A DNA stretch of 26,874 bases from a virus. The notes below the pieces were generated by a model, which did not search any database, was not told the origin of the DNA, and saw nothing but the letters and a program-made list of their open reading frames with translations. The position numbers were made by a program, and so were the translations under genes. This document shows, piece after piece, positions 7,631 to 16,938 of this stretch (positions are counted from its first letter, which is position 1; each line of letters starts with the position of its first letter). The stretch is from positions 1-26,874 of IMG/VR virus record IMGVR_UViG_3300025469_000025. One strand, written 5' to 3'.

Positions 7631-10027
7631 ATGAGCGCGATTCCCAAGCTAAAACAGCAGTCATGGAGCCGATCAATTCTCACACTCGATGACCGTATTG
7701 AACGAAGTTCAAATCCTGAACATCGTCAACACCGTTCAACACCAAAACTCCGGCCAATACAATCCCTCAAGATCATCAGAGCAGGCGACCCGATCCTGAC
7801 GCACGCCATTGATTCTTCGGACTGGAATCGCGACCCTTCCGAGCAGTATATGAGCACGCAGGAAGCCCAAAACCTCATGCTGGCAACTGCCGGACTTACT
7901 CGGCAGATCGAAATCCTTCAGAAAGCCTCTCAGCAGATGCCGACCGCGTTCTACGACTACGAGCAGCCGTATATCGCGGCAAAGACCCGAGCGGATATTA
8001 CCGATACCGACGCCGAACGCCGGCCGATCCACAGCATCAGCAACTATTACAACACGCTCGGGGTCTACCGTTCGGACTTCGATAAGAACTTCAATGATCT
8101 GATCGCCCGGAATGCGATTTACGCGATGTGCGAGAAGGCCATGATGGATTATATGGGAGCCGTGCCGTGGAACATCTTCGATAAGGACCGAAAGCCGGTA
8201 GAGTCGGCAATTGAGTTCATGAAGTATCCGAACCCGCAAGAAGATTTCGGCGTGATCCTCAAGATGATGATCCGCGACCTGATGCGGTATGATGCGGGGG
8301 CGATTGTGAAATCGTTCTCGGTCGGAGGTAAGCGAGGAGACGGGCCCTTACCGCACGTAGCCTATACCATCCCGGGTGAGCGGCAGGTCCGGACGCAGAA
8401 AGCCGGATACCTTCTCGAACTGAAAACGTATCTCGGGACGGAGTTCTGGAAAGAGATCGATCGCGTGCCGATGAGCATCAACATCCCGACTGCCGGCAAC
8501 GTACCGGTCCAGATGACAGAGCCGAACTCGTCCCATTACACGGGATGGTGGAGTCATGGGTATACGGTCCGGTACTGGCAGAGATCCCGCACCGGGGTCT
8601 ACCTGCCATTCCAGCCGGAAGAGATCTGTTACTTCCAGATGTATCCACAGAGCGATCAGATCTACGGCACGGACTTTATCAAGTATCTTCGGTATCACCT
8701 GCAGTATCTCATTGACAGTACCAAGGCAGCCGGCCAGACGTTTGCGAACGGTGTAATCCCGAACATGATCTGGCATCACCCGCAGATCCGGAGTACTCCG
8801 CAGTTGACCGAACGGATCATGCAGATGCAGGCAGAACTTAAAGGCCCGATGAAGTTCGGGGGCGCCATGCATCTGATCGGTGACGAGACGATTGAGTCAA
8901 TGCAGTTCAACCTTCATGACATGGAATGGCTGCAGGGTCAGGAATACGTCGCGAAGATCGTCTGGGCAATGTGGGGATTCAACCCGCAGGAGTTCACCGG
9001 AGGCTCTGAAAATCGCGCGACTGCTTATGTAGGCAGGAACATCACGAAAAGCCGGCTCCTTTACCCGATTATGAGCCTGATCGAGAACAAGATCAATCGT
9101 GAAATCCTGCCCTACTTGCAGGACTACCGGAAGGGATGGACGTTTGAGTTCATCAAGGATATCGATCAGGACGACCAGCAGAAGATCCAGCACACCAAAC
9201 AGATCCAGTGGGGCAGCTTCTCAGTTGCCCGGAATGCTGGTGTTAAACCGTCACTCGCTGCCCGGCATATCTTCGGCAACGAGTTCACGGATGCCGAATA
9301 TAAGGAGATGGATATCGAACAGGAACCGATGCCTGGCGAAGACGGGCAGACTGATGGCGAGAATACACCGGAAGGCCGGTATAACTCTCCGGACGGTCAG
9401 TATCAGCCGGTCTCATTCTCTGATTACGGGCAGGGTGGCGAGAATACCGAGCAGCGCACCGGTGCAAAAGAAGAGAAAGAACATCAGACCGCACCGATCG
9501 GAAAGGCCAAGAAGATCCTGCCTCCCAATTTCGAGATTGAAGTTCCGGAGTTCCCGTATACGGTCGTGACCGGAGAAGATGACAAGTTCATCAAGGCGCA
9601 GGTCTATGTCAAGGACCGCACGGAAGTAGCAGCCGGTCGGTCAGCATATCCCGGGCCGCGCGGAGGCTACTATTACAATACAAAGACCCGAAAACCTGCG
9701 AACCATCGCCCGGCCAATATCGCAGGAGAAGGCAGTAACGAGGCAGAGCAGCACGGCAACCCGCAGCCCCTCCCCCCGGACATGCCTGGCGGCTCGATCC
9801 ATTACATCAAGATCAGCGGGAACGGTGTTGCCTTGTCAGCCGCGCAGTACTCTTACGGAACGGAAGTACAGGCCGCGAAGAACGAAGCGACCAAGAAGTT
9901 CATCGAATGGGTCAAGCCCCAGATGCACGGAATCCCGGACGAAGACCAGATCGATAAACTTAAAGAACTCGCTAAAAAGGAAGGATTAATGATTAAAGAA
10001 GGTGGAGAACCCCGATCACAGTCATAG
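7631..10027 (+). CDS. Portal protein with long C-terminal extension
   Basis: Forms the ring at one capsid vertex through which DNA enters and to which the tail is joined. The 798 residues contain a portal core of about 550: EICYFQMYPQSDQIYGTD near residue 332 and PYLQ/EFTGGSENRATAYV further on are typical of portals of the HK97/SPP1 kind. After a low-complexity Gly/Glu/Gln/Asn stretch (residues about 560-620) comes an extension with GPRGGYYYNTKTRKP near residue 676 and a terminal lysine-rich helix. That extra part is not needed for a portal and might serve in maturation or DNA binding. The start lacks a ribosome-binding site, consistent with leaderless translation from the promoter at 7588. 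Confidence 0.85.
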   Translation: MSAIPKLKQQSWSRSILTLDDRIERSSNPEHRQHRSTPKLRPIQSLKIIRAGDPILTHAIDSSDWNRDPSEQYMSTQEAQNLMLATAGLTRQIEILQKASQQMPTAFYDYEQPYIAAKTRADITDTDAERRPIHSISNYYNTLGVYRSDFDKNFNDLIARNAIYAMCEKAMMDYMGAVPWNIFDKDRKPVESAIEFMKYPNPQEDFGVILKMMIRDLMRYDAGAIVKSFSVGGKRGDGPLPHVAYTIPGERQVRTQKAGYLLELKTYLGTEFWKEIDRVPMSINIPTAGNVPVQMTEPNSSHYTGWWSHGYTVRYWQRSRTGVYLPFQPEEICYFQMYPQSDQIYGTDFIKYLRYHLQYLIDSTKAAGQTFANGVIPNMIWHHPQIRSTPQLTERIMQMQAELKGPMKFGGAMHLIGDETIESMQFNLHDMEWLQGQEYVAKIVWAMWGFNPQEFTGGSENRATAYVGRNITKSRLLYPIMSLIENKINREILPYLQDYRKGWTFEFIKDIDQDDQQKIQHTKQIQWGSFSVARNAGVKPSLAARHIFGNEFTDAEYKEMDIEQEPMPGEDGQTDGENTPEGRYNSPDGQYQPVSFSDYGQGGENTEQRTGAKEEKEHQTAPIGKAKKILPPNFEIEVPEFPYTVVTGEDDKFIKAQVYVKDRTEVAAGRSAYPGPRGGYYYNTKTRKPANHRPANIAGEGSNEAEQHGNPQPLPPDMPGGSIHYIKISGNGVALSAAQYSYGTEVQAAKNEATKKFIEWVKPQMHGIPDEDQIDKLKELAKKEGLMIKEGGEPRSQS
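7703..7726 (+). repeat. Imperfect direct repeat, copy 2 of 2
   Basis: Second copy of the 24-base repeat at 7534. Here it encodes portal residues about 25-32. The portal N-terminus in this part (ERSSNPEHRQHRST) is polar and may be disordered, so it could tolerate a DNA-level signal. Confidence 0.5.
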
Positions 10028-10118
10028 GATACTATCTGAAATAACCCAAACTCTAATATCCTTTACTATCATTATTTTATTGTCCCTCTTGTAATTGAGA
10101 GAGGAGGTTTGTACAAAA
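10028..10118 (+). promoter_or_regulatory. Intergenic gap: possible promoter and strong ribosome-binding site
   Basis: The 91 bases hold an AT-rich stretch (10045-10080, with TTTACTATCATTATTTTATT) that could be a TATA promoter, then AGGAGGT at 10102-10108, ten bases before the ATG at 10119. CCTCT at 10085-10089 can pair with AGAGG at 10100-10104, partly covering the ribosome-binding site. The promoter call is weak; the ribosome-binding site is strong. Confidence 0.4.
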
Positions 10119-10625
10119 ATGTCAGATAACTACGCATCACCCCCGGACGGAAAACTTCCGATGCCGGTCGGAACGATGGGACTTTACATCTACAACGGAC
10201 AGAATTACGTCCCTGTCGGTTCCATAAACCAGAACGCATTGATCCGGATCCAGAAACTCTTCCTTGTGGTCGAGTTCAAACCGCTTGCGGATGGTCTTAC
10301 TGCCGCAGTGATCGACCGGAGCATCGACACCAAGATCATATTCGACGCTTTCCAGAAACCCCTCGTCAACCCGCAGCTCATCAACGGTTCCCGGACCATG
10401 GAGTTCGACACGGATTTCCCCGGATCGACCTCGCTCTGGATGATCCCCGTTCCGCTGCCTTCGGGCGCTCATGTCTCGAATGAGATCCTGCTTGCTCCGG
10501 CACCTACCGATCTCGGGGAGCATTACGTTGACGCGATCCTGACCGACAAGGTATCAGGCGCACAGTCCAAGCAGCGGTTCGAGTATATTGTCGTCTCAAC
10601 CGGCGGCCAGATCCCGGTGTCGTGA
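10119..10625 (+). CDS. Probable virion structural protein (portal-distal)
   Basis: This gene encodes 168 residues, started at ATG 10119 (MSDNYASPPDGKL) because of the AGGAGGT upstream. It is rich in beta-forming residues, with a Pro/Gly N-terminus (GTMGLYIYNGQNYVPVGSI) that resembles the GxxGLYIYNGxxxVPV start of fibre- or spike-linked virion proteins, and a domain with VVEFKPLADGLTAAVIDRSID. No charged linker or membrane segment. Its place between portal and protease suggests a head-associated or fibre-like protein; no family is assigned. Confidence 0.6.
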   Translation: MSDNYASPPDGKLPMPVGTMGLYIYNGQNYVPVGSINQNALIRIQKLFLVVEFKPLADGLTAAVIDRSIDTKIIFDAFQKPLVNPQLINGSRTMEFDTDFPGSTSLWMIPVPLPSGAHVSNEILLAPAPTDLGEHYVDAILTDKVSGAQSKQRFEYIVVSTGGQIPVS

Positions 10626-10630
10626 TCACC

Positions 10631-11026
10631 ATGGCAGACGCAGTACCTCTGGGAAAATTCGGATTTCCTTTGACTCAACAGAAGGAAACCGATATCGAAG
10701 GAAAAGACTTCGATACCTATGCCTCCCCCGATCAGTTTACGGATTACTGGCCTTCAAATATCCCCTTCCACAACGCCCGCCAGCGGCATGTCGGTATCAA
10801 AGCCTTTGTCAAAGGGCTAAGAACAACGATGTGGGAGAACCTCCCGGAATGCCCCCCACTCTGGCAGGATGTCGGCCATTATTGGGACGGATGCGCGGCG
10901 ATCGGATACGAGGTCAAATCCAAAGTATTCACGATCTTCGTGTTTGTGGCAGTCGCTATTGTCTACAAAAACCCCGGCATTATCGGCCAGCTTCTTCCGC
11001 TCGCTATGAAAACGTTCGGAATGTAA
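10631..11026 (+). CDS. Small protein with C-terminal membrane segment
   Basis: This gene encodes 131 residues from ATG 10631 (MADAVPLGKFGFPLTQQ), with GGTG upstream; the GTG at 10622 overlaps the previous stop and is an alternative that would add three residues. The body is rich in aromatic residues (DQFTDYWPSNIPFHN, MWENLPECPPLWQDVGHYW). Residues about 100-117 (SKVFTIFVFVAVAIVY) form one hydrophobic helix close to the C-terminus, unusual for a capsid-region gene. Could be a virion membrane-contact or injection protein; this is a guess from topology. Confidence 0.55.
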   Translation: MADAVPLGKFGFPLTQQKETDIEGKDFDTYASPDQFTDYWPSNIPFHNARQRHVGIKAFVKGLRTTMWENLPECPPLWQDVGHYWDGCAAIGYEVKSKVFTIFVFVAVAIVYKNPGIIGQLLPLAMKTFGM

Positions 11027-11030
11027 TCCT

Positions 11031-11040
11031 CCTTTTTTTC
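11031..11040 (+). terminator. T-run after the membrane-protein gene
   Basis: Seven Ts (11033-11039) follow four bases after the stop at 11026. Archaeal termination mostly relies on such U-rich runs, so this is a plausible transcript end. No stem precedes it. Confidence 0.4.
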
Positions 11041-11080
11041 CATCAGAATCTTTATTATCTCCGCTTCTGTATCATTACAA

Positions 11081-11096
11081 CTAAAGTAAACTTGTA
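11081..11096 (-). promoter_or_regulatory. Reverse-oriented copy of the GTTAAC promoter motif (13 of 16)
   Basis: CTAAAGTAAACTTGTA matches the reverse complement of AACAAGTTAACTTTAT at 13 of 16 bases. It lies 30 bases before the ATG at 11126. It may be a regulator-binding site for the downstream gene, read in the other direction, or a weaker promoter. The remaining bases of this 99-base gap (AT-rich TTTATTATC at 11051-11059) could hold the real TATA box. Confidence 0.35.
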
Positions 11097-11125
11097 ATAA
11101 CACAAGTGGAGATGTTTAACAGATT

Positions 11126-11488
11126 ATGGCAGACGTTGTTGACGTTCCGATTGGGGAACCCGGTACAGTAGTCGGGGGTACGAGCCTTCCGACAGCAAAC
11201 TCGAATCTTCTGACTCCCACAACTACCGTTAATAAAACGGGAAGTATCACCTGTCAAAGACAACCGCTCGGACTGCTGCGGTTCAAGTTCACGCCCTCAG
11301 TTCCGGGCGTTCTTTCGGCAGTATATACCTACGCTGGTACTCCAACATCCGTGGAATTGTTTGCCGGAGCGACTTTACAGGCAAACATTGAGCAACCGGG
11401 GGAGGTCTATGTCACTGCCCGGGAGTCCGTCAACTTCCAATTCAGTGTAACCTCCGGCACATTCCGCCTGATCGTCCGGGAGTATTGA
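11126..11488 (+). CDS. Small beta-rich probable virion protein
   Basis: This gene encodes 120 residues with GTGGAGATG upstream of the ATG. It is made of Val/Thr/Gly/Ser-rich strands (MADVVDVPIGEPGTVVGGTS, SVELFAGATLQANIEQPGEVYVTARES) ending in FRLIVREY, like a jelly-roll or Ig-like decoration protein. No membrane or signal segment. It precedes the YVTN/PKD gene by 37 bases and may share its transcript. Function inferred only from composition and place. Confidence 0.6.
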   Translation: MADVVDVPIGEPGTVVGGTSLPTANSNLLTPTTTVNKTGSITCQRQPLGLLRFKFTPSVPGVLSAVYTYAGTPTSVELFAGATLQANIEQPGEVYVTARESVNFQFSVTSGTFRLIVREY

Positions 11489-11525
11489 TCCTCATGCAGT
11501 CAAAAGGAGAGCGAGAGGTGCTGCG

Positions 11526-13538
11526 ATGAGACAGAAGAAGTATCTGCTGCTGGTGCTGGCCCTGCTGGTGCTGGTGGCGGAAGTGGGGACGGTGGGTGCT
11601 ACCAGTACGGTATATGCTTACGTTGCCAACTTTGGGAGTAATTCCGTATCGGTAATTAATACGACAACAAACACTGTTTCTGCTACAGTAACCGTCGGGG
11701 CTAATCCAGTTGGTATAGCAGTAAATCCGTCCGGGACGTATGCTTACGTTGCCAACCGAGGGAGTAATTCCGTATCGGTAATTAATACGACAACAAACAC
11801 TGTTTCTGCTACAGTAACCGTCAGGGTTAATCCATATGGTATAGCAGTAAATCCGACCGGGACATATGCTTATACTGCCAACTTTGGGAGTAATTCCGTA
11901 TCGGTAATTAATACGACAACAAACACTGTTTCTGCTACAGTAACCGTCGGGGCTAATCCAGTTGGTATAGCAGTAAATCCGTCCGGGACGTATGCTTATG
12001 CTACCAACTATGGGAGTAATTCCGTATCGGTAATTAATACGACAACAAACACTGTTTCTGCTACAATTAACGTCGGGACTAATCCATATGGTGTTGCAAT
12101 AAATCCGACCGGGACATATGCTTACGTTGCCAACTATGGGAGTAATTCCGTATCGGTAATTAATACGACAACAAACACTGTTTCTGCTACAGTAACCGTC
12201 GGGGTTAATCCAGATGGTATAGCAGTAAATCCGACCGGGACATATGCTTATACTGCCAACTATGGGAGTAATTCCGTATCGGTAATTAATACGACAACAA
12301 ACACTGTTTCTGCTACAGTAACCGTCAGGGTTAATCCATATGGTATTTCAGTAAATCCGACCGGGACGTATGCTTACGTTGCCAACTTTGGGAGTAATTC
12401 CGTATCGGTAATTAATACGACAACAAACACTGTTTCTGCTACAGTAACCGTCGGGGTTAATCCAGTTGGTATAGCAGTATTTTACATCCCCATTTCACCC
12501 GTCGCCACATTCACCGCAAATACCACCTTCGGAGTTGCTCCTCTTGCAATACAATTCAACGATACCAGCACTAACGCCCCAACAGCATGGAACTACACTT
12601 TCGGAGATGGAGCATATAGTATTATTCAGAATGCCACGCATACCTACACCACTGCCGGCAACTATTCCGTTTCCTTGACATCCAGCAACATTGCAGGCAG
12701 CAATACCAGCACGCAGACAACGTGGGTGAACGTCACACCGCCCGTTCCGGTTGCATCGTACTCGGCAGCTCCAGTTTCTCCACAAGTGGCTCCGGCCACG
12801 GTAAGTTTCAACGATACCTCAACTAATGCGCCGATATCGTGGCAATGGCAGGTTAATGGTGGAGCGGTACTGGTTACGCAAAATATCACCGCGATATTTT
12901 CAACCGCCGGGACGTACTGGGTCAATCATACCGCGAGCAATTCGGGCGGGACCTCGGTGTGGGATAACGCCACGTATACTGTTACCGCCCCGTTCCTGAC
13001 AGGCGGATTTTCCGGCACTCCACTATCGGGTGCAGTACCACTCTCCGTCACATTCACCGATACCTCAACAAACGCAACCGGGTGGAATTACACGTTTGGT
13101 GATGGGAATTCCAGCACATCACAAAATCCGGTTTTTACCTACAATATTCCCGGGATATACACTGTTGTACAGACCGTGACGAATACATACGGATCCAATC
13201 CGAACGTAACTACAAGAACCAATTATATCAACGTCTCATCTAGCAATTATATCAACGTCTCATCTAGCTCATCTAGTCTATTGGCGATGTTCATCCCCAA
13301 TACCCCGGTATCCGTGACTACCCAGCAGGTAATAGCATTCTGGGATCAGAGCACTGGTAGCCCAACATCACACGTATGGACCTTCGGCGACGGCACCGGG
13401 ATCTCCGGTCTGGCGAACGTCTCGCATTTTTGGGGCGGCATCGGGAACTATCACGTCAATGAAACCGTCTGCGCCGGATCGACCTGCTCCTCGAATTACA
13501 CATGGATTCTGGTCTATGCTCCTCAAGGAGGGTACTGA
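11526..13538 (+). CDS. Secreted seven-bladed YVTN beta-propeller with PKD domains
   Basis: The 670 residues begin with a signal-peptide-like start (MRQKKYLLLVLALLVLVAEV..., probable cleavage near residue 25). Residues 30-323 are seven 42-residue repeats, each YAYVANxGSNSVSVINTTTNT followed by a NPxGIAVNPxGT turn, exactly the number for one closed YVTN propeller. Four PKD-type beta domains follow (about 324-405, 406-488, 489-575 and 585-670) with FGDG and FNDTSTNA signatures. There is no C-terminal anchor. Proteins of this build are surface or S-layer-associated in methanogenic archaea, and the PKD/YVTN families are linked to adhesion. GGAG and GAGGTG lie upstream; the stop is only 2 bases before the protease ATG. 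A signal-peptide surface protein among head genes is unexpected: it may be host-derived and act in virion attachment, envelope remodelling or exclusion of other viruses. Confidence 0.85.
   Translation: MRQKKYLLLVLALLVLVAEVGTVGATSTVYAYVANFGSNSVSVINTTTNTVSATVTVGANPVGIAVNPSGTYAYVANRGSNSVSVINTTTNTVSATVTVRVNPYGIAVNPTGTYAYTANFGSNSVSVINTTTNTVSATVTVGANPVGIAVNPSGTYAYATNYGSNSVSVINTTTNTVSATINVGTNPYGVAINPTGTYAYVANYGSNSVSVINTTTNTVSATVTVGVNPDGIAVNPTGTYAYTANYGSNSVSVINTTTNTVSATVTVRVNPYGISVNPTGTYAYVANFGSNSVSVINTTTNTVSATVTVGVNPVGIAVFYIPISPVATFTANTTFGVAPLAIQFNDTSTNAPTAWNYTFGDGAYSIIQNATHTYTTAGNYSVSLTSSNIAGSNTSTQTTWVNVTPPVPVASYSAAPVSPQVAPATVSFNDTSTNAPISWQWQVNGGAVLVTQNITAIFSTAGTYWVNHTASNSGGTSVWDNATYTVTAPFLTGGFSGTPLSGAVPLSVTFTDTSTNATGWNYTFGDGNSSTSQNPVFTYNIPGIYTVVQTVTNTYGSNPNVTTRTNYINVSSSNYINVSSSSSSLLAMFIPNTPVSVTTQQVIAFWDQSTGSPTSHVWTFGDGTGISGLANVSHFWGGIGNYHVNETVCAGSTCSSNYTWILVYAPQGGY
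11613..12494 (+). repeat. Seven 126-bp tandem repeats in the YVTN gene
   Basis: Repeats begin at 11613, 11739, 11865, 11991, 12117, 12243 and 12369. A core of about 60 bases, from GGGAGTAATTCC through GTTTCTGCTAC, is base-identical in all seven copies; differences cluster in the last third and in the codons after GCC AAC. Variants alternate (GANPVG, RVNPYG, GVNPDG), suggesting unequal recombination or gene conversion between blades. This repeated DNA is clearly more AT-rich than the flanking genes. Confidence 0.9.
13221..13268 (+). repeat. 24-bp tandem duplication between PKD domains
   Basis: Two identical 24-base units (13221-13244 and 13245-13268) encode NYINVSSS twice, followed by a partial serine-rich third start. 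The duplication lengthens the linker before the fourth PKD domain and looks recent. Confidence 0.85.
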
Positions 13539-13540
13539 TC

Positions 13541-14965
13541 ATGCCCGTTGGAGGGGAAGCGACCTTTCAGGGTTGCGTCGATAAAATGAAAAGTAAGGAG
13601 GGGTACACGGACGAAGTAGCGCACAAGGTCTGCGGCAAGCTCGAACAGCAGGCCAAGAAAGGAATGCTCTCACCCGATCAAGCAACGATCGCAGAAGGTA
13701 CAACTGTCGCTAAAGCCCCGCATGATATCGAATGGGGTTTTGATATCCAAGGGATCCTTGCCAGCACCCGGAAGATCCGGGGGACCTTCCATGTCCCGAA
13801 AGTGGACAAGGATAATGAGTACATTACCGAAGAGGCGATGGATAAGGCAATGCACGATTACATGCACCTGCCGATCATCTCGGAATACCACAAGGAACGT
13901 CCGATCGGGATTGTGATAAAGAGCTGGAAGACCAAGGAGGGCGAGTATCAGTTTGAAGGTGTGATGAAGGAGACTCCGGACTGTGATGATGTCTGGGAGA
14001 AGGTAAAGAAAGGCGAATACGATATGCTCTCGATTGCCGGTAAACGTACTGACATTTCCAGCGAGTGCAGTACCCACCCGCTCCTGAGAAGCAAAGACCG
14101 GCCCTGCGTGACAAAAGGGTTACGTCTGGACTCGATCTCTGCCTGCGATGAAGGAGCGCGTAATGACGAGACGCATCTTGAGCCGGTGACGAAAGCGCGT
14201 GAAGAGACCGGGCCGTATCTCTTAACAACTGAACTTGAATTAGAACAAGTTAACTTTATTAAGGCTACGAACGCAGAATCTTCACTAATCCACGTTGTTA
14301 CAGATGGAACGCGGAAAAAGGATGGTAATATGCCTGATTGTTCAAAAGGAAAATCCGGAATGCCTCTGACCAAAGGTGAAACCGGGTCCGACAAGGAGAA
14401 GCTTGGCGAGGACTCGAAGACCGAAGGAAAGAAAGAGGGGTACGAAGGCCGCAAGAATGCGGAGGAAAAGAAAGAGGAAAAAGAGTGGGATGACAAGCCC
14501 GAAGGTGAAGGTGCTGACAAGACCACTGAGAAAAAGGCCGAGCCTGAAGGTGAAAAGACCGAAGAGTCTGAAACCAAGGAGATCCTGCGGTCAATGCACG
14601 CCATGATGAAGGAACTTCACTCTCACATCATGGCCTCCGGGGAAGGCAAGGAGTATAAGAAAGGCGAGGAGACCAAACTCGCACCGCCCATGAAGAAATC
14701 GCTCAAGGACGGCAAGCCCGGGCAGGAGACTCCTGAGGAAGTCGGCGAGCAGCGAGAGATCGATAAGAAAGGTGAGGGCAATGTCAAGAAAGCCCAGAGC
14801 CTTGAACTTGAGCTGCAGAAAGCGCTCAAGCGGATCGAGACTCTTGAGAGCATGGAGTTCCAGAAAGGATCCCCCGTGATCATTCAGGAGACCAAACCCG
14901 AAGAGGGGCGCAAGCTTTCGACTGCCGACGCCATCATGAAAGCGAACAAGGGGAAGTTACGATGA
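13541..14965 (+). CDS. Prohead protease (XkdF-like) fused to scaffold-like domain
   Basis: Processes the prohead during capsid maturation and, in its C-terminal part, probably supplies the scaffold. The start is ATG 13541 with AGGAGG nine bases upstream. The 474 residues open with MPVGGEATFQGCVDKMKSKE and a Cys-containing helical segment that recurs in archaeal and bacterial XkdF-type proteins. Residues about 75-168 form the protease, with candidate catalytic His117 (SEYHKERPIG) and Ser164 (YDMLSIAGKR). Residues from about 264 are extremely rich in Lys and Glu (DKEKLGEDSKTEGKKEGYEG ...) and end in a heptad helix (LELELQKALKRIETLES), typical of a scaffold. It overlaps the capsid gene by ATGA. 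Confidence 0.85.
   Translation: MPVGGEATFQGCVDKMKSKEGYTDEVAHKVCGKLEQQAKKGMLSPDQATIAEGTTVAKAPHDIEWGFDIQGILASTRKIRGTFHVPKVDKDNEYITEEAMDKAMHDYMHLPIISEYHKERPIGIVIKSWKTKEGEYQFEGVMKETPDCDDVWEKVKKGEYDMLSIAGKRTDISSECSTHPLLRSKDRPCVTKGLRLDSISACDEGARNDETHLEPVTKAREETGPYLLTTELELEQVNFIKATNAESSLIHVVTDGTRKKDGNMPDCSKGKSGMPLTKGETGSDKEKLGEDSKTEGKKEGYEGRKNAEEKKEEKEWDDKPEGEGADKTTEKKAEPEGEKTEESETKEILRSMHAMMKELHSHIMASGEGKEYKKGEETKLAPPMKKSLKDGKPGQETPEEVGEQREIDKKGEGNVKKAQSLELELQKALKRIETLESMEFQKGSPVIIQETKPEEGRKLSTADAIMKANKGKLR
14225..14263 (+). promoter_or_regulatory. Late promoter copy 2, inside the protease gene
   Basis: Bases 14225-14259 match 20002-20036 at 29 of 35 positions, including the exact 16-mer AACAAGTTAACTTTAT at 14244-14259. 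It lies in coding sequence (residues about 229-240, LLTTELELEQVNFIK), where such an identity to two intergenic promoters is not expected. The TATA-like part is TTTATTAA; transcription should begin near 14284. Confidence 0.6.
14330..14965 (+). CDS. Nested in-frame scaffold product (internal start)
   Basis: The ATG at 14330 (residue 264 of the full protein, MPDCSKGKSGMPLTKGE) is in frame, and a GGATGG ribosome-binding-like stretch ends four bases before it. The promoter-like element at 14225-14263 lies about 70 bases upstream, so a separate message would start near 14284. The 211-residue product would be the Lys/Glu-rich scaffold half with no protease. Phages such as lambda (C and Nu3) make protease and scaffold by the same nested arrangement. 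It would raise the scaffold:protease ratio and place the capsid gene on the same message. Confidence 0.55.
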   Translation: MPDCSKGKSGMPLTKGETGSDKEKLGEDSKTEGKKEGYEGRKNAEEKKEEKEWDDKPEGEGADKTTEKKAEPEGEKTEESETKEILRSMHAMMKELHSHIMASGEGKEYKKGEETKLAPPMKKSLKDGKPGQETPEEVGEQREIDKKGEGNVKKAQSLELELQKALKRIETLESMEFQKGSPVIIQETKPEEGRKLSTADAIMKANKGKLR

Positions 14966-16380
14966 GAGCAAAAAGAGCAAATCTGACCATTCAGAAAGGA
15001 ATGGCAGTGTCCCAGACAAAGGGACTTGGCCTTGATCTCGGGTTCCATCAGCGTGACCGGGATTTCGGTAACGGCATGTGGGGCAATGTCCCGGATCATT
15101 CAGCCGTTGACACTACGAAGGCAGCAGCCTACTCACAGAAGATCTTTTCCGAAATGGGTCTCATGGATGTCCCGCTCGCTCCGGCCATCCCGGACGACCT
15201 GGTCCGGAAAGCCTGCGGTCTGGGTGCATATGCCCACAGGTACGATGAAGGCGAACCTGCCGACAAGCTGGAAGACCAGCTTATGAAGGCCAAGATCAAC
15301 ACCATCGTCACGCTCGCCCGTGGTTCCGAAATCGCAATGGAAGCCTTCGGGATCCGGAAGGCTGACCGTGAGAACCTCGACTATCTGCTGGATCTCGACA
15401 TCCAGAAAGCGACTGACACTACCTCAAACCTGATGCACGTCATCGCTGACCAGAACGTCGCGTACCTCTACAAGCGTGCGTATCCGATCCAAGCACTCAT
15501 TCCCACAGAAGCCAATAAGGGGAAGACTGCGAACTGGGATGCAATCGCACCGTTCGATCTCGGGTCATGGGGACCCATCACGGAAGATGCCGAACTTGTC
15601 GATTCGTCACAGGCTCCGTATAACCGGTCGCAGGTCGTCAAGTACTTCGCCACCGTGTTCCGTGTCACCAAAGCCGCACAGTTCGCCGGGCTGGCACAGA
15701 TCCCGCCCCGTGACATGCTGGCAATCAGGATCGATGCCGCACAGGACGCGATGCGGGCAGGCAGGGAACGTGCAATGCTCGGGGTCAATCTCTCGATCAA
15801 CGACACGAACTTCGCCTTCCGGCCCACACTCTCGCTGACCACAGATTCAACGAACCTGTACTTCAACGGGATCTACCAGATGCTCCAGAACAACACGTCA
15901 GGAGCGACATCGAACCAGACCTGGGTAGCGTCCAGCGGGAACAGCTACAACCAGATCAACACTGATCTCGGGACCACGTACCGCTACATGCGGAAGTTTG
16001 GCATGATGCCGAACCTTGCGATCACCGATCTCCGGACGTTCACGATCTACAAGCAGGGCTTACAGGACTTCTTCCGGTCAGCACCGGTCACCACATTCCA
16101 CCAGGGGATCTCAAAGGTCTACCTTTCGTTCCCCGGAGGCCCGGACGGTCTGCCGTTAATCGCAACCGAGTTCCTGCCGCAGACTGCCGGACAGGGCGCG
16201 ATCTTCCTGATCGATACCGCAATGATGTCTCGCCGGTCACTCTGGCAGGACATGTTTGAGGACCTCGCCAAGATCAACCTCTCACAGAAAGGCGTGATCT
16301 CATGCGCCGAGACCTTCATCGACAAGAGCGATGTCAACGGAACAAGCACCCTCCAAGGAGGGGTCATAGGCATCGCATAA
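14962..16380 (+). CDS. Major capsid protein (HK97-fold type)
   Basis: Builds the icosahedral shell. The 472 residues follow the protease/scaffold gene directly (ATGA overlap) with AGGGGAAG upstream, the expected place. N-terminal residues 1-140 are helical and charged; the central region holds WDAIAPFDLGSWGPITEDAE and KYFATVFRVTKAAQ (about residues 192-242), which resemble the spine and strand region of HK97-type capsid proteins; the region with DAAQDAMRAGRERAML is a helix of the kind seen before the A-domain. The end TLQGGVIGIA is hydrophobic. The assignment rests on place, length and general pattern; the fold was not modelled. Confidence 0.85.
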   Translation: MRAKRANLTIQKGMAVSQTKGLGLDLGFHQRDRDFGNGMWGNVPDHSAVDTTKAAAYSQKIFSEMGLMDVPLAPAIPDDLVRKACGLGAYAHRYDEGEPADKLEDQLMKAKINTIVTLARGSEIAMEAFGIRKADRENLDYLLDLDIQKATDTTSNLMHVIADQNVAYLYKRAYPIQALIPTEANKGKTANWDAIAPFDLGSWGPITEDAELVDSSQAPYNRSQVVKYFATVFRVTKAAQFAGLAQIPPRDMLAIRIDAAQDAMRAGRERAMLGVNLSINDTNFAFRPTLSLTTDSTNLYFNGIYQMLQNNTSGATSNQTWVASSGNSYNQINTDLGTTYRYMRKFGMMPNLAITDLRTFTIYKQGLQDFFRSAPVTTFHQGISKVYLSFPGGPDGLPLIATEFLPQTAGQGAIFLIDTAMMSRRSLWQDMFEDLAKINLSQKGVISCAETFIDKSDVNGTSTLQGGVIGIA

Positions 16381-16395
16381 GGAGGGAAAAGTAAC

Positions 16396-16938
16396 ATGAC
16401 AGCAGCAGCAGACAAAACCGCAGGACTGTACCGGAGCAACACGCAGGGCATCATGCCAATCCAGCTCTATGTCCTGAAGGTCACACAGAGCGACTGGATC
16501 AACCTTTCCAATATTCGGGGCATATGGCTCCCGTCTGGGTTTACGGTCACAGCAGCCGCGAACGTTGCGGAAACTCCCACATACGGAACCGCCGCGATCA
16601 ACAACTCCGGAACAGCATACGGCACTACCGACACGTCAATCGTCGTCCAGACAGCACAGGCAACCCGGAAACCCCCGTATTACATCCTGACAGCGGGCGG
16701 AGAGGTCATGTTGTGCGTAGCAGATTCAACGCCAACCGCAACCACCAGCACGCTCACCGTTCAGCGGGGGATGCTCGGCACCACTGCATCAGCTACCGGA
16801 CTGGCGAACACGAACGTAGTCTCGATCCTGAACCAGATCGTTCTCGGGTCGGCAAGCGTAGGTCCAACGTTCCTCCGTGCAGTACCGTTCACTGGCGAAC
16901 CGGATTCCGCAACGGTGTTCTCCGTCGTCTCACCGTGA
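16396..16938 (+). CDS. Probable head decoration or accessory structural protein
   Basis: This gene encodes 180 residues with AAGGAGGG upstream of the ATG. It is almost all beta-rich (Thr, Ala, Val, Gly), with PYYILTAGGEVMLCVA and STLTVQRGMLGTTASATG at about residues 93-145, a GEVMxV...TLTVxRGxLGTTA signature seen in viral structural proteins. Its position next to the capsid gene favours a shell-stabilising or decorating role, but a tail-attached role cannot be excluded. Confidence 0.65.
   Translation: MTAAADKTAGLYRSNTQGIMPIQLYVLKVTQSDWINLSNIRGIWLPSGFTVTAAANVAETPTYGTAAINNSGTAYGTTDTSIVVQTAQATRKPPYYILTAGGEVMLCVADSTPTATTSTLTVQRGMLGTTASATGLANTNVVSILNQIVLGSASVGPTFLRAVPFTGEPDSATVFSVVSP

Follow-up and report, generated by a model that had tools for sequence, protein, structure and literature searches.

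A predicted exported YVTN-PKD protein with a variable propeller, encoded among the virion genes of a tailed virus that probably infects an archaeon

Why would a tailed virus carry, among the genes for its own particle, a gene for a protein that appears to be made for export from the cell? The question is raised by a 670-aa protein encoded in a virus sequence of 26,874 bases, referred to here as the window, which is an entire IMG/VR virus record and probably a genome fragment. The features needed for the argument are as follows.

7631-10027, plus strand: portal protein (family match), the upstream border of the variable interval
10622-11026, plus strand: 134-aa protein with a PECPPLW motif and a C-terminal hydrophobic stretch (sequence inspection and cross-hits)
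11126-11488, plus strand: 120-aa small beta-rich protein, probably structural, directly upstream of the YVTN-PKD gene
11513-11520, plus strand: likely ribosome binding site GAGAGGTG of the signal-peptide-YVTN-PKD gene, read from the sequence
11526-13538, plus strand: signal-peptide-YVTN-PKD gene, ATG start, 670 aa
11526-11600, plus strand: signal peptide, residues 1-25, with a cleavage-type site between VGA and TS
11604-12485, plus strand: seven YVTN blades of 126 nt (42 aa) each, 882 nt in all
12498-12734, plus strand: PKD domain 1 (PF18911)
12738-12983, plus strand: PKD domain 2 (PF18911)
13032-13220, plus strand: PKD domain 3 (PF18911)
13221-13268, plus strand: duplicated 8-aa linker, one copy of which is missing from contig L002 (24-nt indel)
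13329-13493, plus strand: PKD domain 4 (PF18911)
13525-13532, plus strand: Shine-Dalgarno sequence AAGGAGGG of the protease, within the final codons of the PKD gene
13541-14965, plus strand: prohead protease/scaffold (Peptidase_S78_2), probable ATG start at 13541 (called ORF start 13502)
14962-16380, plus strand: major capsid protein, after the protease; used as the query for relatives

A sequence-only reading had assigned to positions 11526-13538 a signal peptide, a seven-blade YVTN propeller and four PKD domains, and this architecture is confirmed. The protein has seven YVTN repeats (NCBIfam TIGR02276, E 6.9e-101) and four stretches above the cut-off for PKD_4 (Pfam). Its N-terminus, MRQKK-YLLLVLALLVLVAEVGTVGA with TST following the cleavage point, has a charged n-region, a hydrophobic core at residues 4-25 and a V-x-A site; the signal peptide was called from hydropathy and this cleavage motif. 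The closest PDB entry by sequence is 1L0Q (E 1.7e-87, residues 29-403), an archaeal surface layer protein with a YVTN propeller and PKD, and the alignment extends through the first PKD domain of the viral protein. The term S-layer mimic, which the same reading had proposed, would be fair by fold given this match, and the part of it that implies lattice formation finds no support in the sequence. An AlphaFold2 model (three-sequence alignment, mean pLDDT 37) was set aside, and the structural likeness refers to the 1L0Q sequence match only. The 670-aa protein has no cysteine near the cleavage site, and neither a lipobox nor a membrane anchor that would explain its retention on the cell, which counts against a surface location.

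The gene had also been placed between small structural genes and the protease, and its surroundings bear this out. The gene for the 120-aa protein, which has no family match, is directly upstream, and a Peptidase_S78_2-type protease and then the capsid protein follow downstream. The 134-aa PECPPLW protein has look-alikes in the related genomes G001 (L013:11600-11980) and G005/G015. The stop codon of the YVTN-PKD gene (13536-13538) is downstream of the Shine-Dalgarno sequence of the protease; as this signal lies inside its last codons, the gene is an integral part of the operon. A search for inverted repeats around it found none, and the longest direct repeat between its flanks is 8 nt.

Relatives of the virus were found with a profile from three capsid proteins, which led to contigs L021-L028 besides L002, L005 and L006. 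A tblastn search of the phage collection with the YVTN-PKD protein, the portal and the capsid protein gave no match, one scan of genome contigs gave a weak Ferruginibacter match only, and no tRNA genes or Rfam families were found in the window. Two of the relatives, G001 (L005/L013) and G007 (L023), encode an MCM helicase, which fits archaeal hosts, and the host of the window virus is probably an archaeon.

The relatives display a varied pattern. L002 is from a nearly identical virus and has the same gene at the same place. The G002 virus (L006) encodes a signal-peptide-glycine-rich-PKD protein upstream of the protease. The gene is absent from G001 between the PECPPLW-type gene and the protease; instead, this virus has a 971-aa tail protein and a diversity-generating retroelement (DGR) further upstream in the portal-protease interval. 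The G001 DGR (L013:6589-10805, which is G001:36588-40804) includes the gene for the tail protein and a reverse transcriptase; its variable repeat is at ~39391-39493 with the template 174 nt downstream, and 17 of the 21 mismatches are at template adenines, the other four being at the 3' end. In G005, the plus-strand portal-protease interval contains a fibre-like open frame of 1031 codons on the minus strand (G005:15780-20120, L021:3195-7517), possibly an inverted or invertible fibre. Finally, the distant relative G007 (L023), whose major capsid protein is ~47% identical, encodes a signal peptide-YVTN7-PKD2 protein (L023:11728-13185) directly behind a tail fibre (L023:9647-11656), in a ~4-kb insert between tail genes.

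This pattern bears on the simplest explanation, that a host surface gene was captured and is carried as neutral cargo. The propeller does have a foreign composition (GC 0.43 vs 0.52 for the record; GC3 0.33 vs ~0.6), the family is common in archaea and the gene is missing at the equivalent place in G001. Nevertheless, we consider neutral cargo very unlikely, because L023 has the same architecture at another place, the frame is open, the allelic change described below is strongly localised, the gene lacks flanking repeats and its 3' end contains the ribosome binding site of the protease. With the gene present in relatives and no marks of transposition, the simple-cargo option of the sequence-only reading is disfavoured.

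The G007 protein, used as a query, led to three further genomes, G013 (L047), G014 (L048, 7.9 kb) and G015 (L049), and a further search led to L060. Their structural proteins do not match those of the window, apart from the common genes for a fibre and for what we call an X-PKD protein, in which X is discoidin-like in L047 and, by similarity, also in L048 and L060, glycine-rich in L049 and a propeller in the window and L023. The fibre gene is followed immediately by the X-PKD gene in three viruses with unrelated backbones (L047, L049 and L060) and in L048, the near-identical partner contig of L047; for G015, the two genes are in this order provided that the record is joined end to end. The G013 and G015 fibres are related to that of G007, and the L060 fibre is related to that of G015. 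The PKD stalks of L047 and L049 are 64% and 55% identical, respectively, to that of G007, and the heads differ. Signal peptides are present in L047, L048 and L060, as well as in L023 and L006; the 5' end of the L049 gene is cut by the contig end. In addition, the L047 and L048 proteins resemble type I membrane proteins in having a transmembrane segment at the C-terminus, with RRR as its last residues. The gene is thus beside a fibre in L023, L047, L048, G015 and L060; the upstream neighbor in the window is the small beta-rich protein, which is not a recognised fibre, and so the fibre link rests on the relatives.

L047:6468-8846 and L048:2-1933 differ jointly in the fibre end and the surface-protein gene. 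The differences are mostly synonymous (pN/pS 0.20), as if one allele of the fibre-surface-protein block had replaced another; hypermutation was rejected as their source on the same grounds. Two other small exported-type proteins occur in these viruses. G013:19232-19885 (minus strand) encodes a second one of 217 aa, whose part beyond the signal peptide has 7.4 sequons per 100 aa, among the structural genes of a tailed virus unrelated to that of the window. G015:33224-33841 and L060:7458-8096 encode a conserved small signal-peptide protein, convergently and just past the tail protein gene downstream of X-PKD.

Is the protein really exported, or does its N-terminal segment merely anchor it in the virion? 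If the segment served only as a virion anchor, the protein should be under no pressure to have N-glycosylation sites. The density of sequons (N-x-S/T) was ranked over 117 proteins of at least 300 aa from the compared virus records, and the five complete signal-peptide-PKD proteins compared, two of them being alleles of a single gene, rank first to fifth with 4.0-4.7 per 100 aa; the next protein has 1.96. The PKD domains alone have 5.7-8.4 sequons per 100 aa, vs 0-1.2 for the PKD domains of the G001 and G007 tail proteins. There is no such enrichment in the propeller, and propellers of high-GC phages that lack a signal peptide have 2.6-3.4 per 100 aa, so that the argument rests on the PKD parts. 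Together with the signal peptides, the enrichment makes true export a better reading than anchoring in the virion. Genes of host origin could show such enrichment as well, and even then the lineage would be an exported one. On this sequence evidence, we think it likely that the 670-aa protein is exported.

The opposing explanation is that the protein is a virion adhesin, in which the propeller binds the receptor and the N-terminal helix is an anchor or assembly tag. The genes are, after all, in the structural operon, often behind a fibre, the high-GC phages have tail proteins with fused YVTN propellers, and the glycine-rich and discoidin-like heads match phage tail protein families too. The presence of these three domains in tail proteins lends a virion role some weight. 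We regard it as improbable all the same, since signal peptides are lacking in those phage propeller proteins whose 5' end is present, only the PKDs of signal-peptide proteins are enriched in sequons, the L047/L048 proteins have the transmembrane segment with RRR, and A/V-x-A sites occur in the window, L023, L047 and L006. With its signal peptide and sequon-enriched PKD domains, the protein does not have the cytoplasmic, signal-less profile of a tail fibre or receptor-binding virion protein. Among the three options initially offered, an exported surface protein is therefore the best supported, from the recurrence of the signal peptide with independent N-terminal domains, the PKD sequons and the L047/L048 anchor, and the virion anchor joins simple cargo as disfavoured.

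The propeller differs between the window and L002 in a way that the rest of the sequence does not. From ~8000 to 16907, there are 9 substitutions (~8 kb) and the single 24-nt indel outside the propeller, vs 114 substitutions inside its 882 nt. At 112 of these 114 sites, the window base recurs at the corresponding position of a different L002 blade, where 48 would be expected with random bases at those sites and 18 with random sites. The matching segments are in register or shifted by multiples of 126 nt, and blades of the two alleles are alike at 109.7 of 126 positions in register vs 108.6 out of register. Both alleles have seven blades. This difference fits exchange among blades with the number kept at seven, subject to the caveat that the window and L002 are metagenome contigs and that 126-bp propeller repeats cannot be assembled reliably from short reads (PMC12222747).

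The difference could thus be mainly an artefact of short-read assembly, which would bear on the diversification claim only. The WD40 repeats of Podospora, also 126 bp, are mis-assembled from Illumina reads by SPAdes (PMC12222747), exact repeats of up to 123 nt occur within the window allele, and several related contigs end inside propellers. An artefact nonetheless seems rather unlikely to us. In the propeller, 25% of the window 21-mers and 37% of the 31-mers have no counterpart in L002, and the same is true of 45-57% in the opposite direction, which means that the reads of one allele, reordered, cannot yield the other; furthermore, there are exactly seven blades on both contigs.

If the alleles are taken as assembled, the pN/pS between them is 0.65 for the propeller vs 0.02 for the terminase, at equal pS (0.17). 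We do not take the propeller value as a sign of positive selection, since blades that have been shuffled are no longer compared with their orthologues. Since the upstream terminase is at equal pS, an older propeller allele that was retained or re-imported by recombination and then shuffled would be just as probable as fast change in place. The most variable blade positions are 10 and 36 in both lineages; a test for their clustering on one face gave p 0.08, and we claim no such clustering. A DGR in the window was rejected: there is no template copy of the propeller outside the gene, and no reverse transcriptase match among the 20 main proteins of the partial genome. From the alleles compared, change in the propeller head seems to be much more rapid than elsewhere in the virus, and the shuffling of blades would presumably be adaptive.

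We predict that the gene encodes an exported, probably N-glycosylated protein of the host surface, tied to the fibre-receptor system and most likely masking the receptor, with a head that is blade-shuffled. We rate this explanation as an even call, a compromise between export, of which we are more confident, and receptor masking as the purpose of export, to which we give somewhat less than even weight. It builds on what is established, namely the architecture, its repeated occurrence next to fibre genes in tailed viruses that are unrelated, the enrichment in sequons and the localised allelic difference. The protein would be made along with the virion genes and placed outside the infected archaeal cell, presumably on its surface, and not in the virion. 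The PKD domains would form a stalk and the N-terminal domain (YVTN, discoidin-like or glycine-rich) an interchangeable specificity head. Because the gene is directly behind the tail-fibre gene in several relatives, the protein most likely acts on the receptor system of the fibre. It would cover or mimic the receptor, and related viruses as well as the virus's own progeny would cease attaching to the infected cell or its debris, which would amount to superinfection exclusion. The propeller would be diversified by swapping whole and partial blades among its seven repeats, seven blades being kept.

The same export evidence, the signal peptide and the sequons, would serve equally for a surface protein that alters the host in some other manner, such as adhesion, aggregation or lysogenic conversion (like lambda Lom), with attachment not blocked. 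YVTN/PKD proteins are ordinary archaeal surface proteins (1L0Q), and PKD proteins are present on Methanosarcina plasmids. We consider such a role unlikely, although more probable than a virion adhesin, because the recurrent order of fibre and X-PKD in unrelated viruses and the fast-changing head point to attachment. As to receptor masking, the tailed archaeal virus HFTV1 uses the S-layer protein as its primary receptor (PMC9973310), and so a surface mimic could act on adsorption; no superinfection exclusion was observed for HFTV1 (PMC9973310), which counts against masking. A more speculative proposal, which we put forward as tentative, is that the fibre and an exported, exchangeable-head glycoprotein that masks the fibre's receptor and is blade-shuffled form a mobile pair in archaeal tailed viruses, providing fibre-matched exclusion. 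In general, the results suggest that an exported protein with a changeable head has a part in the contest over cell attachment.

For bacteria, it is known that tailed viruses can bring about exclusion and remodel the cell surface. The sequence-only reading knew of no archaeal virus function of this kind, and our searches of the open-access literature agree, with nothing found on YVTN or PKD proteins in archaeal viruses. A virus-encoded surface protein linked to attachment genes is a kind already known; its exported version in an archaeal tailed virus is new in the open-access literature searched. The fixed stalk, the swapped heads and the recurrent place after the fibre provide a handle on receptor competition among archaeal viruses, and the heads of the X-PKD proteins may point to the receptors themselves.

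Several known systems resemble parts of this one. The archaeal surface layer protein 1L0Q likewise has a seven-blade YVTN propeller followed by PKD, whereas the window protein is encoded by a virus in a structural operon, has four PKD domains and has a propeller that varies between near-identical viruses. Lambda Lom is also a signal-peptide surface protein encoded among virion genes, in its case tail genes, but it is a small outer-membrane barrel. The llp and cor genes of T5 are adjacent to a fibre/receptor-binding gene, as is the gene in the relatives of the window virus, and the Llp/Cor exclusion lipoproteins are exported-type viral proteins as well. T5 Llp is a small periplasmic lipoprotein that acts on FhuA (PMC9586334), while the window protein has 670 aa and no lipobox, and its part in exclusion is one that we infer. 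T5 combines receptor binding and exclusion on one receptor (PMC9586334), and any likeness to the fibre/YVTN-PKD pair would be one of function, not of family.

Other resemblances concern the propeller. The high-GC phages (L003, L004, L063-L068 and L070) have the same repeat family in tail-region proteins, but these have no signal peptide where the start is present, no PKD where searched, and are fused to or beside tail proteins. Several of the high-GC phage-type contigs (L003, L004, L063, L064, L066, L067, L068 and L070) end inside YVTN repeats. In the fungal WD40 propellers of HET-D/HET-E, 126-bp repeats are reshuffled within the gene and there are few hypervariable positions (PMC1805685, PMC12222747). 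Concerted repeat exchange between alleles, a feature of these HNWD-type proteins, is found here as well (the 112/114 sites and the lack of an in-register signal, with the assembly caveat); however, HET-D/HET-E are intracellular immune receptors with a varying number of repeats, whereas both alleles here have seven and no positive selection is claimed. The archaeal virus ANMV-1 has a tail fibre diversified by a DGR (PMC4372165), also a hypervariable attachment protein, and a DGR of this kind is present between portal and protease in the relative G001. The variation in the window, in contrast, is a mosaic between repeats, with no template copy outside the gene and no reverse transcriptase match among the scanned proteins. 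Should long reads bear out the blade shuffling, viruses would have a route to propeller diversification distinct from the reverse-transcriptase route of this close relative.
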